Of a DNA stretch of 64,000 nucleotides, positions 2,716 to 61,152 are shown one piece after another (the first letter of the stretch is position 1; every line of letters starts with the position of its first letter). A program made the translations under genes and the position numbers. Origin of the DNA: Bacteroidota bacterium (GTDB lineage: Bacteria > Bacteroidota > Rhodothermia > JANXDC01); the NCBI GenBank assembly GCA_025998875.1, contig AP024675.1, positions 1,647,549 through 1,711,548 on the forward strand, written 5' to 3'. The notes below the pieces were generated by a model. The model ran no database searches, was not told the DNA's origin, and saw only the letters and a program-made list of their open reading frames with translations.

Positions 2716-2734
2716 CGGTGTGTTCTTTACCTGT

Positions 2735-2947
2735 CTGCGCGGTCGGTGCCGCCCTTGGGCGGTGAAAAGGGAATCCGGTGCAAATCCGGAGCTGTCCCCG
2801 CAACTGTGAGCCGTCCCCCGCAAGAGCCGGGGGTAGTGCGCCGGAAGCCACTGGTCCGACGGGTTCTTTCAGAAAGGGCTATCGGACCGGGAAGGTCTTC
2901 CTCTGCAGGCGCCACGGCGAGCCAGGAGACCTGCCGACCGTGCGCAG
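2735..2947 (+). promoter_or_regulatory. Cobalamin (adenosylcobalamin-type) riboswitch aptamer
   Basis: The conserved core elements occur in order: ggtgaaaagggaa, ccggtgcaaatccgg, cccgcaactgt, gccactg (2847-2853), ggaccgggaaggtc and the B12 box agccaggagacctgcc (2920-2935). A P1 closing stem pairs ctgcgcggtcgg (2735-2746) with ccgaccgtgcgcag (2934-2947), with a 2-base bulge. Such aptamers bind coenzyme B12 and switch off uptake genes when B12 is plentiful. It precedes a BtuB-like receptor on the same strand, the classical target. Confidence 0.95.
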
Positions 2948-2969
2948 GCTGCCGACCTTCGGGGGATAG

Positions 2970-3090
2970 GGTCCGGTGGTCCAGATGGTTTGCGCCTGTT
3001 GCGTCGTATTGTGCCCGTAGAGGCCCCTTCGAGCGCGCATCCCTTTCTGGAGACCCCGGACCTTGTGAACACCGGTGAGGTTCGGGGGAG
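2970..3090 (+). promoter_or_regulatory. Riboswitch expression platform that can sequester the btuB ribosome binding site
   Basis: A 9-bp stem can form between 3054-3062 (ccccggacc) and 3079-3087 (ggttcgggg), covering most of the Shine-Dalgarno sequence gggggag (3084-3090). An alternative partner, ggtccgg at 2970-2976, is perfectly complementary to 3056-3062, so the two helices exclude each other. No T-tract follows, so translational rather than transcriptional control is suggested. The pairing was found by eye and not folded by program. Confidence 0.55.
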
Positions 3091-3092
3091 AT

Positions 3093-5000
3093 ATGATCGG
3101 TTTTCTGCTGCTTTTCTGGATGGGTGGACCCGTACGGGGGATGCTTCCGGATTCCGGCGGGGCGGATACGCTTCGCCTCCGGCTTCCGGAGGTGACCGTG
3201 GTGGCCACCCGTACCCCAATCGAACCCCATACGGCTCCAGGCCGACTGGAGCGCATTCGCCCCGCGGAGACGGTTTCGCCTCTCGGTTCGGTGGCGGAGC
3301 TGCTCCGCGATCAGACGAACCTGTCCATGCGCGCCTACGGTCCGGGTGCCATGGCCACCCTGAGCTGGCGGGGTACGGATGGGGCGCACACCCTGGTCCT
3401 GCTCGATGGGCTACCCCTGGGCAATGCCCAGAACGCCGTCGTGGACCTGGAGCTGTTGCCCGCCGCGCTCTGGGACGTCGTGGAGCTGGCCTATGGATCG
3501 GGATCGGCCCTGTATGGATCCTCGGCCCTGGGAGGTGTGCTGCGCCTGGTGCCGCCCGATCCCCCCATGGCCCCCTGGAGCGCCCGCTTCTGGGGTCAGG
3601 CGAACGACTACGGGCTCCGGGAAGGGGGGCTGGGGCTTGCAAGCCGATCGGGTGCGTTCTGGGTGCAGGTCATCGGATACGGTGCCTGGAGCGCCAACCG
3701 GTATCGATATCAGGACAACACCGTTTATCCTCCCGTATGGCGCCGTCGGCAGAATGCCGACTACGAGCAGATCGGAGGGTGGATCCGTTCCGGATACGAG
3801 CGCGGCCCCTGGCGGTTCCGGCTTTCCTACTGGGGGCACGGGGCAGATCGTGGACTGCCCGGTCCGATCATAGCCGGCGTCGGACGCGCCCGCCAGGAAG
3901 ATGTCCTCTCCTACGGGTGGGCGGAGCTGGCCTACAGGCCTGCGGGCCTGGAGCAGAGGTTGCTTGTAGCCCTTCAACGGGATGCACTTCGCTATAGCGA
4001 TCCGGATGCCGATCTCCTGGCCCATCATCGCAACCGGAGTTGGGCCTTCTGGTATGAGGGCACTGCGCTCCCGAGTCCGGAGGCGCATCTGGCCTGGGGG
4101 CTGTGGTACCGTCATCAGAGCGTCGAGAGCGCGAACCTGGCGCGATTCCGGGGCCGACATCTGCTCTCTCTCTATGGATCGGCTCTCTGGAGGCTCCGAC
4201 CGGGCTGGCTGGTATATCCCGCTCTGCGGGCGGATTTCTACAGCGACGCATCCGATGCCATAAGCCCCCGGCTTGGCATGAACCTGGTCATCCGTGACGG
4301 GGTGGCCTTCAAGGCCCAGGTGGGACGCAACTACCGGGTGCCCACGTTCAACGACCTGTACTGGATCGGGGGAGGAAATCCGGAGCTGAAGCCGGAGCGG
4401 AGCTGGGCTGTAGATGGAGGGCTACGCTATCAGGCTCCGCGCGGGGAGGGCGAGCTTACGCTCTTCTGGAACGATATCCGGCAACGAATCGTCTGGTTGC
4501 CCGGTCCAGATGGCCGCTGGCGGGCTCAGAATCAGGGGCATGTGCGCATACGGGGCCTGGAGGCCAGCCTGCGCGGGCAGGTGAGCTCCGGGCTGGAGCT
4601 CGGGGTGCTGTATACGGGCCTGGATGCGCGCAAGCAGGATCGATCCGGGCCCGGGGACCGAACCCATGGTCGGGTGCTCATGTACGTGCCCCCGCATATG
4701 GCCCGCCTCACTGCGCGCATAATGCGGGGGAGCTGGCTTATCGAGGCCCGCGCCCTCCTGTCCAGCTATCGCTACACAACGGCCGACAACACGGCCTGGC
4801 TTCCGGGGTATGGGTTGCTCACCCTCGCCGGAGCCTACAGCGGATTCTGGCAGGGGATCCGGATCCGAGCACGGGTCGCGCTAGAGAACCTGTTCGATAC
4901 GCCCTATCAGATCATGCCCTATTACCCTATGCCGGGTCGGGCTCTCCGGGTAGGGGTGGAGTTCAGTTGGCCCGTCGAAACCAGGACACCACGGCAATGA
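3093..5000 (+). CDS. btuB: TonB-dependent outer-membrane receptor, BtuB-like (corrinoid uptake)
   Basis: A 635-residue outer-membrane receptor. A short hydrophobic N-terminus (IGFLLLFWMGG) suits a signal peptide. A TonB-box-like stretch (LPEVTVVATRTP) follows, then a plug domain (SVAELLRDQTNLSMRAYG, LVLLDGLPLG, YGSGSALYGSSALGG), then a 22-strand-type barrel with receptor blocks such as GRNYRVPTFNDLYWIGGGNP and LKPERSWAVDGG. The position directly behind a cobalamin riboswitch, and ahead of a BtuG-like lipoprotein, argues for B12 or other corrinoids as ligand. The start was set at ATG 3093 because the SD is placed there; an in-frame GTG at 3075 would add six residues including an Arg, and cannot be excluded. 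Confidence 0.9.
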   Translation: MIGFLLLFWMGGPVRGMLPDSGGADTLRLRLPEVTVVATRTPIEPHTAPGRLERIRPAETVSPLGSVAELLRDQTNLSMRAYGPGAMATLSWRGTDGAHTLVLLDGLPLGNAQNAVVDLELLPAALWDVVELAYGSGSALYGSSALGGVLRLVPPDPPMAPWSARFWGQANDYGLREGGLGLASRSGAFWVQVIGYGAWSANRYRYQDNTVYPPVWRRRQNADYEQIGGWIRSGYERGPWRFRLSYWGHGADRGLPGPIIAGVGRARQEDVLSYGWAELAYRPAGLEQRLLVALQRDALRYSDPDADLLAHHRNRSWAFWYEGTALPSPEAHLAWGLWYRHQSVESANLARFRGRHLLSLYGSALWRLRPGWLVYPALRADFYSDASDAISPRLGMNLVIRDGVAFKAQVGRNYRVPTFNDLYWIGGGNPELKPERSWAVDGGLRYQAPRGEGELTLFWNDIRQRIVWLPGPDGRWRAQNQGHVRIRGLEASLRGQVSSGLELGVLYTGLDARKQDRSGPGDRTHGRVLMYVPPHMARLTARIMRGSWLIEARALLSSYRYTTADNTAWLPGYGLLTLAGAYSGFWQGIRIRARVALENLFDTPYQIMPYYPMPGRALRVGVEFSWPVETRTPRQ

Positions 5001-5015
5001 AAAGGAGGAAGGCGT

Positions 5016-6089
5016 ATGCGGAGTAAGCCGATTGGGTATTTGATCGGGATTCTGCTTCTGGCCCTCTGGACCGGCTGTGGGCCGGAGGCCGAAGAAGGCC
5101 AGCTGGTTACCCGAGGCGTGTATGTGCTCAACCAGGGTAACTTCCAGCGGGGCAACGCGGAGATTACCATTTATGATCCGCAGACAGGCGCAGTGCAGCA
5201 GAACGCCTTTCAGAGCCGAAACGGCCGGCCGCTGGGCGATATCGCCCAGAGCATGACCATCATCGACACACGGGGTTATATCGTGGTCAACAACTCCCAC
5301 CGCATCGAGGTGGTCGATCTGGAAGACGGTCTTCGGAGCCTGGGCACGATCACGATCTCCAATAATGCCAGTCCCCGCTATCTGGTCCCGGTCGGCCCCA
5401 CGCGGGCGTATGTGACGAATCTGTTCGGCAACAGCGTCTCGGTAGTGGATCTGACGCAGAATCGGGAGATCAAGACCATACCCGTGGGGCGCAACCCCAA
5501 CGGCATCGCCGTAGCCCAGGGCAAAGCCTATGTGGCCAACACGGGGTTCGGATCCAGCCGCACGGTGAGCGTGATCGATATTTCGAAAGACGAGGTGGTG
5601 CGCACGCTGGAGATGCCTTTCGATGGGCCCACGCATGTCTTCGTAGACGATGACGGGCAGGTATGGGTGGTCTGCTCGGGCCGCACGGATTATCAGAATC
5701 CCGCGAACAGTACGCCCGGCGGGTTTGTGGTCTTGGATCCCCGCACCGATGCGATCGTCTCCACGATCGCGGCCAACAGAGGCCTGGGCGGCAAGGCGTT
5801 CGGGGGGGATGTAGCCGTGGGCCCCGGCGTGGCCTTTGTGCTGCACGGCGAGGGCCTGATGCGGCTGAATACGCGCACCAACACACTGGAAAACGCCACG
5901 CTGATCGGGGGCGCCTTTGGCGCCGTGGGCTATGATCCCGTCCGAGAAGAAATATACCTCACGGACGTAAAGGACTTTGTCCAGTCCGGAGAGGTGTTCA
6001 TCTATACCCTCTCCGGGGTCCGGCGCGGCAGTTTTCCCGCCGGGATCATTCCCGGGGCCGTTGTGGTGAATGTGGTGCGGGAATCGTAG
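5016..6089 (+). CDS. BtuG-like surface lipoprotein (YVTN/YncE-type beta-propeller), probable corrinoid-binding partner of BtuB
   Basis: A 357-residue lipoprotein. The signal peptide ends in the lipobox LALWTGC (Cys near residue 21). The rest is a beta-propeller with repeated blade signatures: VYVLNQGNFQRGNAEITIYD, AYVTNLFGNSVSVVDL, AYVANTGFGSSRTVSVIDI, EEIYLTDVKDF. In Bacteroides, BtuG is a propeller lipoprotein that sits on BtuB and captures B12 with very high affinity. The architecture, the LNQGNF opening and the location after btuB under a B12 riboswitch make the same role likely here. A strong SD (aaaaggagg) precedes the ATG. If context were ignored, YncE-family protein of unknown ligand would be the call. 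Confidence 0.75.
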   Translation: MRSKPIGYLIGILLLALWTGCGPEAEEGQLVTRGVYVLNQGNFQRGNAEITIYDPQTGAVQQNAFQSRNGRPLGDIAQSMTIIDTRGYIVVNNSHRIEVVDLEDGLRSLGTITISNNASPRYLVPVGPTRAYVTNLFGNSVSVVDLTQNREIKTIPVGRNPNGIAVAQGKAYVANTGFGSSRTVSVIDISKDEVVRTLEMPFDGPTHVFVDDDGQVWVVCSGRTDYQNPANSTPGGFVVLDPRTDAIVSTIAANRGLGGKAFGGDVAVGPGVAFVLHGEGLMRLNTRTNTLENATLIGGAFGAVGYDPVREEIYLTDVKDFVQSGEVFIYTLSGVRRGSFPAGIIPGAVVVNVVRES

Positions 6090-6090
6090 T

Positions 6091-6306
6091 ATGGGCGAAC
6101 CCGTAGTGGATCGGTGTGTCTGTTTCAACTGCACGTTTGCCGAGTTGTGGCAGGTTGCGCAAACTTCCGGAGCCCGAAGCATCGAAGCTCTCCAACGGCA
6201 TATTCCGTTCGGTCATCGATGCGGGCTCTGTCATCCCTATGTGGCGCGCATGTTGCAGACCGGAGAAACCCGTTTCCCTGTAGACAGGAAGGAGGAGGCC
6301 TCATGA
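6091..6306 (+). CDS. BFD-like [2Fe-2S]-binding protein
   Basis: A 71-residue protein with Cys9-x-Cys11 and Cys44-x2-Cys47, the spacing of the [2Fe-2S] site in bacterioferritin-associated ferredoxin (BFD) domains. The helical segments ARSIEALQRHIPFGHRCG and LCHPYVARML also fit that fold. An additional Cys14 is present. It probably acts as a small cytoplasmic electron carrier. It begins one base after the preceding stop codon and ends in an ATGA overlap with the next gene, so it is firmly part of the B12-controlled operon. Function there is unknown; donating electrons to a cobalt(III) corrinoid is a hypothesis. Iron storage seems less likely, since no bacterioferritin gene is near. Confidence 0.75.
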   Translation: MGEPVVDRCVCFNCTFAELWQVAQTSGARSIEALQRHIPFGHRCGLCHPYVARMLQTGETRFPVDRKEEAS

Positions 6307-6824
6307 ATCGGACCTGGATACGCTGGTCGGCCTGGAGCGCGCTCATCGCGCTGGCCGCGCTGAGTCGGCTTCTACCTCATCCCCCGAACTTCACCCCCAT
6401 TGGCGCTATGGCGCTTTTCTCGGGCGCCCATATGGGGTTGAGGCCGGGGGCTTTTGCGGTTCCCCTCCTGGCTCTGCTGGTGAGCGATCTCCTGATCGGC
6501 ACCCATCCCCTCATGCCCTTTGTCTATGGCAGCTTTGCCCTGATCACCGTGCTCGGCTATGTGCTCTTGCACACCCGGCGCACGCTCTGGCGCCTGGGCG
6601 GATCGGCCCTGCTGGCCTCGACGCTCTTTTACCTGATCACAAACTTCGGCGTATGGGCTGTGGGTAGCTGGTATCCGAAGACCCCGGAGGGGCTTTTGAG
6701 CTGCTACATAGCCGCTATCCCCTTCTTCGGCAACACGCTGGCAGGGGATCTGTTCTTTACCGCCGTGCTCTTCGGCCTTTGGGCCTGGCTGGAGCGGCGG
6801 GTGCCGGCGCTCGAGACCGCCTGA
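6303..6824 (+). CDS. DUF6580-family putative membrane transporter, candidate corrinoid permease
   Basis: A 173-residue polytopic membrane protein with about five hydrophobic helices. It opens with RLLPHPPNFTPIGAMALFSG and has a late block TNFGVWAVGSWYPKTPEGL followed by SCYIAAIPFFGNTLAGDL; these are hallmarks I associate with DUF6580 proteins of Bacteroidota relatives. Size and topology recall ECF-transporter S-components. The gene starts in an ATGA overlap with the [2Fe-2S] gene and closes the riboswitch operon. No ATPase, BtuC or BtuF gene is nearby. The invariant-looking Cys in SCYIAA is worth noting because BtuM, a solitary S-component for B12, uses a Cys ligand. Transport of corrinoid is inferred from context only. 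Confidence 0.7.
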   Translation: MNRTWIRWSAWSALIALAALSRLLPHPPNFTPIGAMALFSGAHMGLRPGAFAVPLLALLVSDLLIGTHPLMPFVYGSFALITVLGYVLLHTRRTLWRLGGSALLASTLFYLITNFGVWAVGSWYPKTPEGLLSCYIAAIPFFGNTLAGDLFFTAVLFGLWAWLERRVPALETA

Positions 6825-60786: not shown

Positions 60787-60791
60787 CTGCG

Positions 60792-61152
60792 TGGAGATGG
60801 CGGGAGTCGAACCCGCGTCCGGACCAGCCCGCACACAGGCTTCTACGGGCGTAGTCGGTTTATCGGTTCTCGTTCTGCGCTTAGCCAACCGACAGGCGGC
60901 ACAGAACCAGCCCTTCGGCGATCTCGTCTTCAGGTCCCGGGCCAGGACTCCGAAGACCAGCCTGCCCGATGCGATGCCCGTTCGTCAGGGGGCAGGCGCC
61001 CCGACGGCGGACAGATGGCGGGAGATTACGCCGCCATCGCGTAGGAGTACGAGTTCGCACTTCTTTGTGCGAGGCGTGTTTTACGGGCTTTCGCCTCCAG
61101 CCCGGCCCGCCGCCTGTGCTCCTGCCTGGTCCGTCGAAACCAGCTCATCCCC
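60792..61152 (-). ncRNA. ssrA: Transfer-messenger RNA (tmRNA)
   Basis: About 361 bases, minus strand. The 5' end GGGGATGAGCTGGTTTCGAC and the 3' end GGTTCGACTCCCGCCATCTCC form the tRNA-like domain: a 7-bp acceptor stem (GGGGATG with CATCTCC) and a T-arm GGTTCGACTCC. The 3' CCA is not encoded; ACGCA follows. The tag frame (61058-61026) begins at a GCG resume codon and reads ANSYSYAMAA, then TAA, ending in the usual A-M-A-A degron. GC-rich stems between tag and T-arm fit the pseudoknots. tmRNA with SmpB rescues stalled ribosomes. Confidence 0.95.

Follow-up and report, generated by a model that had tools for sequence, protein, structure and literature searches.

In the window, that is, the whole stretch of 64,000 nucleotides of Bacteroidota DNA that was analysed, a cobalamin riboswitch aptamer stands ahead of four closely spaced genes on the same strand, the last of which encodes a membrane protein of the DUF6580 family. 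The features of this operon are as follows:

2727..2952, + strand: cobalamin riboswitch aptamer, RF00174 (cmscan 110.3 bits, E 9e-27, full length)
3093..5000, + strand: BtuB-like TonB-dependent receptor, 635 aa (PF00593 and PF07715)
5016..6089, + strand: BtuG-like beta-propeller, 357 aa (PF16819, DUF5074)
6091..6306, + strand: BFD-type [2Fe-2S] protein, 71 aa (PF04324, 29.7 bits; cut-off 26)
6303..6824, + strand: DUF6580 six-helix membrane protein, 173 aa (PF20221, 185.4 against 27 bits)

The aptamer spans model positions 1-189, scores 110.3 against a gathering score of 31.5 bits, and is the sole cobalamin riboswitch in the complete 2.35 Mb genome. The solved structures closest to the receptor are the Bacteroides BtuB chains 8bmx_C, 8p97_A and 8p98_A, and the propeller, probably a surface lipoprotein, comes closest to 8p97_B and 8bmx_D, the BtuG partners in BtuB-BtuG complexes; sequence matches to chains of these solved Bacteroides complexes reached E 6e-37 and 2e-28. 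Together, RF00174, the Pfam assignments and the solved-structure matches confirm the gene identities that an earlier, sequence-only reading of this DNA had given. That reading had also reported a 4-base overlap between the last two genes, and the BFD-type and DUF6580 genes indeed share the bases ATGA at 6303-6306. No sigma-70 promoter was detected when the operon was scanned for one. Elsewhere in the window, a tmRNA gene lies at 60789-61152 on the - strand (175 bits).

The source genome encodes B12-binding proteins, including MetH-like and mutase-type ones (the latter with a GTPase part), both names being read from sequence. Genome-wide single-family searches gave no PF01032 (FecCD/BtuC) match at E<=0.01, where 13 of 14 control genomes were positive, no EcfT (PF02361), and no CbiC, which marks corrin-ring synthesis and was likewise not found in seven other genomes tested. 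The presence of B12-binding proteins without CbiC, FecCD or EcfT implies that this organism needs an importer. The sequence-only reading had remarked that BtuCDF is missing here, and this holds at both scales, with no BtuCDF gene within the operon and no FecCD in the whole genome. Two PF01497 (BtuF-like) proteins are encoded (L132, L135), whose starts lack a clear signal peptide by eye. Such proteins, again with no evident signal peptide, also persist in other BtuC-less genomes or operons (L104, L093, L165) and are possibly cytosolic corrinoid binders.

Predicted fold and conserved residues of DUF6580

The AlphaFold2 model of the DUF6580 protein in the window (53 sequences in the alignment) reached a pLDDT of 97.3 and a pTM of 0.91, and its predicted architecture is the six-helix S-component fold. 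In a Foldseek search against the PDB, the top 16 matches were all S-components, either ECF-type or BtuM; the highest TM-score, 0.66, belonged to BtuM with cyanocobalamin (8c7p), and the nearest solved fold by E-value was the folate protein FolT. The Foldseek E-values of the best matches were modest (0.02-0.1), and the DUF6580 profile matched no chain among PDB sequences at E<=10, though the BtuM structure 8c7p is present there, so the kinship between DUF6580 and S-components is one of fold only. The window protein gave no match to the S-component family PF12822, and one Patescibacterial member scored below its threshold (18.8 against a gathering score of 30.7 bits). A viral fold library gave no informative result. 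Our literature search found no paper on DUF6580, and an older prediction under another name may exist.

The sequence-only reading had proposed the Cys in the SCYIAA motif as a cobalt ligand by analogy with BtuM, in which Cys80 is reported to be invariant and essential, a Ser mutant failing to complement (PMC6072759). Across DUF6580 members this proposal is weakened: position 134 is Cys in 152 of 200 and Ser in 38, and even among riboswitch-linked Bacteroidota copies it is Cys in 28 of 39 and otherwise mostly Ser, so that Ser134 is found in linked copies too. Because Cys80 is invariant in BtuM and Cys134 is often replaced by Ser, the analogy fails as a rule, and we rejected a universal Cys-cobalt ligand for the family. 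His26 in the first loop (173/200) is more conserved than Cys134, and R22, N29 and D62 are nearly invariant. One riboswitch-linked clade (L057, L069, L091, L093, L094, L099, L104 and relatives) has His109 where other members have Phe, Leu135 for Tyr, and mostly lacks His26, a pattern of residues that may reflect a swap of corrinoid ligand.

Distribution of DUF6580 across genomes

In a fixed sample of 296 Bacteroidota genomes, about 40 of the roughly 100 DUF6580 loci fetched carry a same-strand cobalamin riboswitch upstream within ~4 kb. A shuffled DNA control gave no riboswitch match, and at one or two riboswitches per ~4 Mb genome chance would be expected to yield well under one such case. The recurrent arrangement is riboswitch - BtuB - (BtuG) - DUF6580, the riboswitch lies immediately upstream of DUF6580 in seven loci, and linked copies are scattered over the tree, the label needing 11 changes. 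In the riboswitch survey, of a kind that the sequence-only reading had suggested, linkage stood for these ~40 loci, some with DUF6580 alone, and about 60% of the sampled genes have no nearby riboswitch and many of them adjoin housekeeping genes, which leaves other substrates possible for some members. In genomes with an unlinked DUF6580 gene, the riboswitch sits at another locus and controls BtuB/BtuG there, in many cases alongside a DPH6-like gene or a gene identified by eye as a class II ribonucleotide reductase. None of these riboswitch operons showed a FecCD permease. Small membrane genes beside such unlinked riboswitch-btuB operons (L305, L312, L315) appeared YitT-like or MarC-like by eye and were dismissed as B12 permease candidates. 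DPH6-like PP-loop ATPases (PF01902) also recur in cobalamin-riboswitch loci beside DUF6580 (L142, L165, L166, L104, L091 and others).

Comparison with FecCD, the permease family that includes BtuC, revealed that the two are nearly mutually exclusive in this Bacteroidota sample. DUF6580 occurs in 119 of the 296 genomes and strong FecCD (E<1e-20) in 192, and the latter was found in 18 of the 119 DUF6580-positive genomes against 174 of the 177 negative ones (Fisher p 8e-56, a statistic that counts related genomes as independent); both were missing in only 3 of 296. The same pattern recurs within family f5, where genus g11 carries FecCD but no DUF6580, and most other genera have DUF6580, many of those without FecCD. 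In a quick tree, the FecCD proteins of DUF6580-positive genomes were mostly separate from riboswitch-linked FecCD, and 0 of the 20 FecCD loci fetched from such genomes had a riboswitch within 4 kb. EcfT was present in 8 of the 119 DUF6580-positive genomes, and most DUF6580 genomes had no CbiQ.

The linkage extends beyond Bacteroidota, as 30 of 80 named DUF6580 loci from many phyla carry a riboswitch match in the fetched stretch, and a Planctomycete operon is ordered riboswitch - DUF6580 - BtuF-like - DPH6. Among Patescibacteria, DUF6580 occurs in 81 of 287 genomes, and FecCD was absent from the six genomes tested. Levybacterial loci have the order NrdJ - DUF4430 - DUF6580 - adenosyltransferase with AdoCbl-II riboswitches. 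Within the best-scoring 20 Patescibacterial loci, 18 have a DUF4430-like protein adjoining DUF6580, 7 have a cobalamin-clan riboswitch within 1.5 kb, and 4 have BtuR-type adenosyltransferases verified with Pfam. Vertebrate transcobalamin has DUF4430 as its C-terminal domain (PMC4350170), and the membrane-anchored DUF4430 protein, which nearly always precedes Patescibacterial DUF6580 (L264-L283; L158, L194, L205, L210-L212), may be a surface B12 binder of these bacteria. A genome-wide association of DUF6580 with PduO in Patescibacteria was rejected, co-occurrence being not beyond chance (23 observed, 25.7 expected), and BtuR taking the place of PduO is a possible explanation. A thioredoxin-like gene lies directly downstream of DUF6580 in six Patescibacterial loci (confirmed by Pfam in L281 and called by eye in L267, L270, L274, L276 and L279). 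One Levybacterium class II ribonucleotide reductase gene (L212:3140-6553) carries an intein with Intein_splicing and LAGLIDADG_3 domains.

Proposed function and alternatives

Many B12-dependent bacteria have BtuB without BtuCDF, and their inner-membrane importer has mostly yet to be identified (PMC6072759). We propose, with a probability of roughly 0.83, that DUF6580 is a solitary cobamide importer of S-component fold in the inner membrane that replaces BtuCDF. The operon would then form a complete cobamide-scavenging unit: the riboswitch would be expected to repress it whenever coenzyme B12 is abundant, the BtuG-like protein and BtuB-like receptor would capture the corrinoid and bring it across the outer membrane, and DUF6580 would move it across the inner membrane in the place of BtuCDF. 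Since EcfT is missing from the source genome and from most DUF6580 genomes, DUF6580 probably acts alone, as proposed for BtuM, and transport dependent on an ECF module was rejected for most genomes. We infer the transport activity, substrate range, direction and energy source of DUF6580, as well as the regulatory outcome of the operon and what the [2Fe-2S] protein does. The sequence-only reading had suggested an S-component-like or solitary inner-membrane permease for corrinoids, and the fold, riboswitch linkage, exclusion of FecCD, absence of EcfT and B12-gene neighbours of DUF6580 lend this strong support.

Several other substrates were weighed against this proposal. Import of a corrinoid precursor or part (cobinamide, a lower-ligand base or alpha-ribazole) in place of whole cobamides would suit the riboswitch, as precursor transporters are also under cobalamin riboswitch control. 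CblT imports alpha-ribazole. A CbiA/CobQ-type gene stands two genes downstream of DUF6580 at one locus (L211), and BtuM itself binds cobinamide (PMC6072759). However, the source genome lacks CbiC, the linked BtuB and BtuG are importers of whole corrinoids, and the exclusion is against the very family that holds BtuC, which makes a precursor substrate improbable. Cobalt transporters, too, are found under cobalamin riboswitches (PMC3766115), and DUF6580 could in principle import cobalt ions like CbiM-type systems; yet the source genome and the seven others tested, lacking CbiC, have no need to take up cobalt for making B12, most DUF6580 genomes lack CbiQ, and the fold matches S-components for organic vitamins and BtuM, so that we consider this extremely unlikely. 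The unlinked copies, many beside housekeeping genes, and the rank of FolT as nearest solved fold by E-value would agree with an S-component for another vitamin, or with an S-fold protein that does not transport, for instance a sensor or a scaffold, riboswitch linkage being then only part of the family's story; S-fold sensors and MreD do exist (PMC11109136). Such a role is very unlikely given that riboswitch-linked copies spread over the tree and several phyla, that the family as a whole excludes FecCD, and that genomes with unlinked DUF6580 have no FecCD-family permease in their riboswitch operons.

A separate idea from the sequence-only reading is that the [2Fe-2S] protein acts as an electron donor, so that corrinoid bound to DUF6580 is reduced or decyanated as it enters. 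In its favor, the BFD-type gene adjoins and translationally overlaps the DUF6580 gene in the window, the ligands C9, C11, C44 and C47 are invariant in four operon homologues (families f1 and f9), and thioredoxin genes stand beside DUF6580 in some Patescibacteria. We nevertheless regard it as doubtful, for the BFD-type gene neighbours DUF6580 in only 4 of ~40 riboswitch-linked loci, the proposed Cys ligand of DUF6580 is Ser in many members, the thioredoxin may serve the adjoining ribonucleotide reductase, and a role of the BFD-type protein in reduction before adenosylation or in iron-related functions is equally possible. The suggested survey of BFD neighbours placed this gene beside DUF6580 only in families f1 and f9, and BFD was rejected as a conserved DUF6580 partner.

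Taken together, DUF6580 very probably serves as the inner-membrane importer of B12 in many bacteria without BtuCDF, some ultra-small Patescibacteria included. It is likely that the family, to which no function had been assigned before, comprises widespread solitary cobamide importers of S-component fold which form the main non-ABC B12 route for much of Bacteroidota and their neighbours, serve some Patescibacteria together with a membrane-anchored, transcobalamin-like DUF4430 binding protein, an adenosyltransferase and class II ribonucleotide reductase, and bind their substrate without BtuM-type Cys dependence. If true, DUF6580 would fill the importer gap across several phyla and correct metabolic predictions for many genomes, provide a testable route through which Patescibacteria that depend on hosts acquire the B12 needed to make DNA precursors, and offer a second case for the study of S-component-fold transport without an ATPase.

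Relation to known systems

The operon combines parts of several known systems. The BFD-type protein shares the CxC-x32-CxxC ligand set of the Bfd family (PF04324), but its score does not reach the NCBIfam cut-off set for true Bfd and it is located in a B12 operon. The outer-membrane part and the riboswitch class are those of Bacteroides BtuCDF with BtuB/BtuG, whereas the source genome has no FecCD/BtuC and DUF6580 occupies the inner-membrane position. With the ECF S-components FolT, RibU, ThiT and CbrT, DUF6580 shares its fold by structure comparison; in contrast to them, it occurs without EcfT in the source genome and in 111 of the 119 positive genomes and stays below the PF12822 gathering score. 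BtuM of Proteobacteria (PMC6072759) has the same six-helix S-component fold at about 170-200 aa, is linked to BtuB, and likewise occurs where BtuCDF is missing and the genome has no ECF module. As DUF6580 has neither detectable sequence similarity to BtuM nor its invariant Cys, it stands outside the BtuM family and most likely works like BtuM, over a far wider taxonomic range that includes Patescibacteria and several Bacteroidota lineages.
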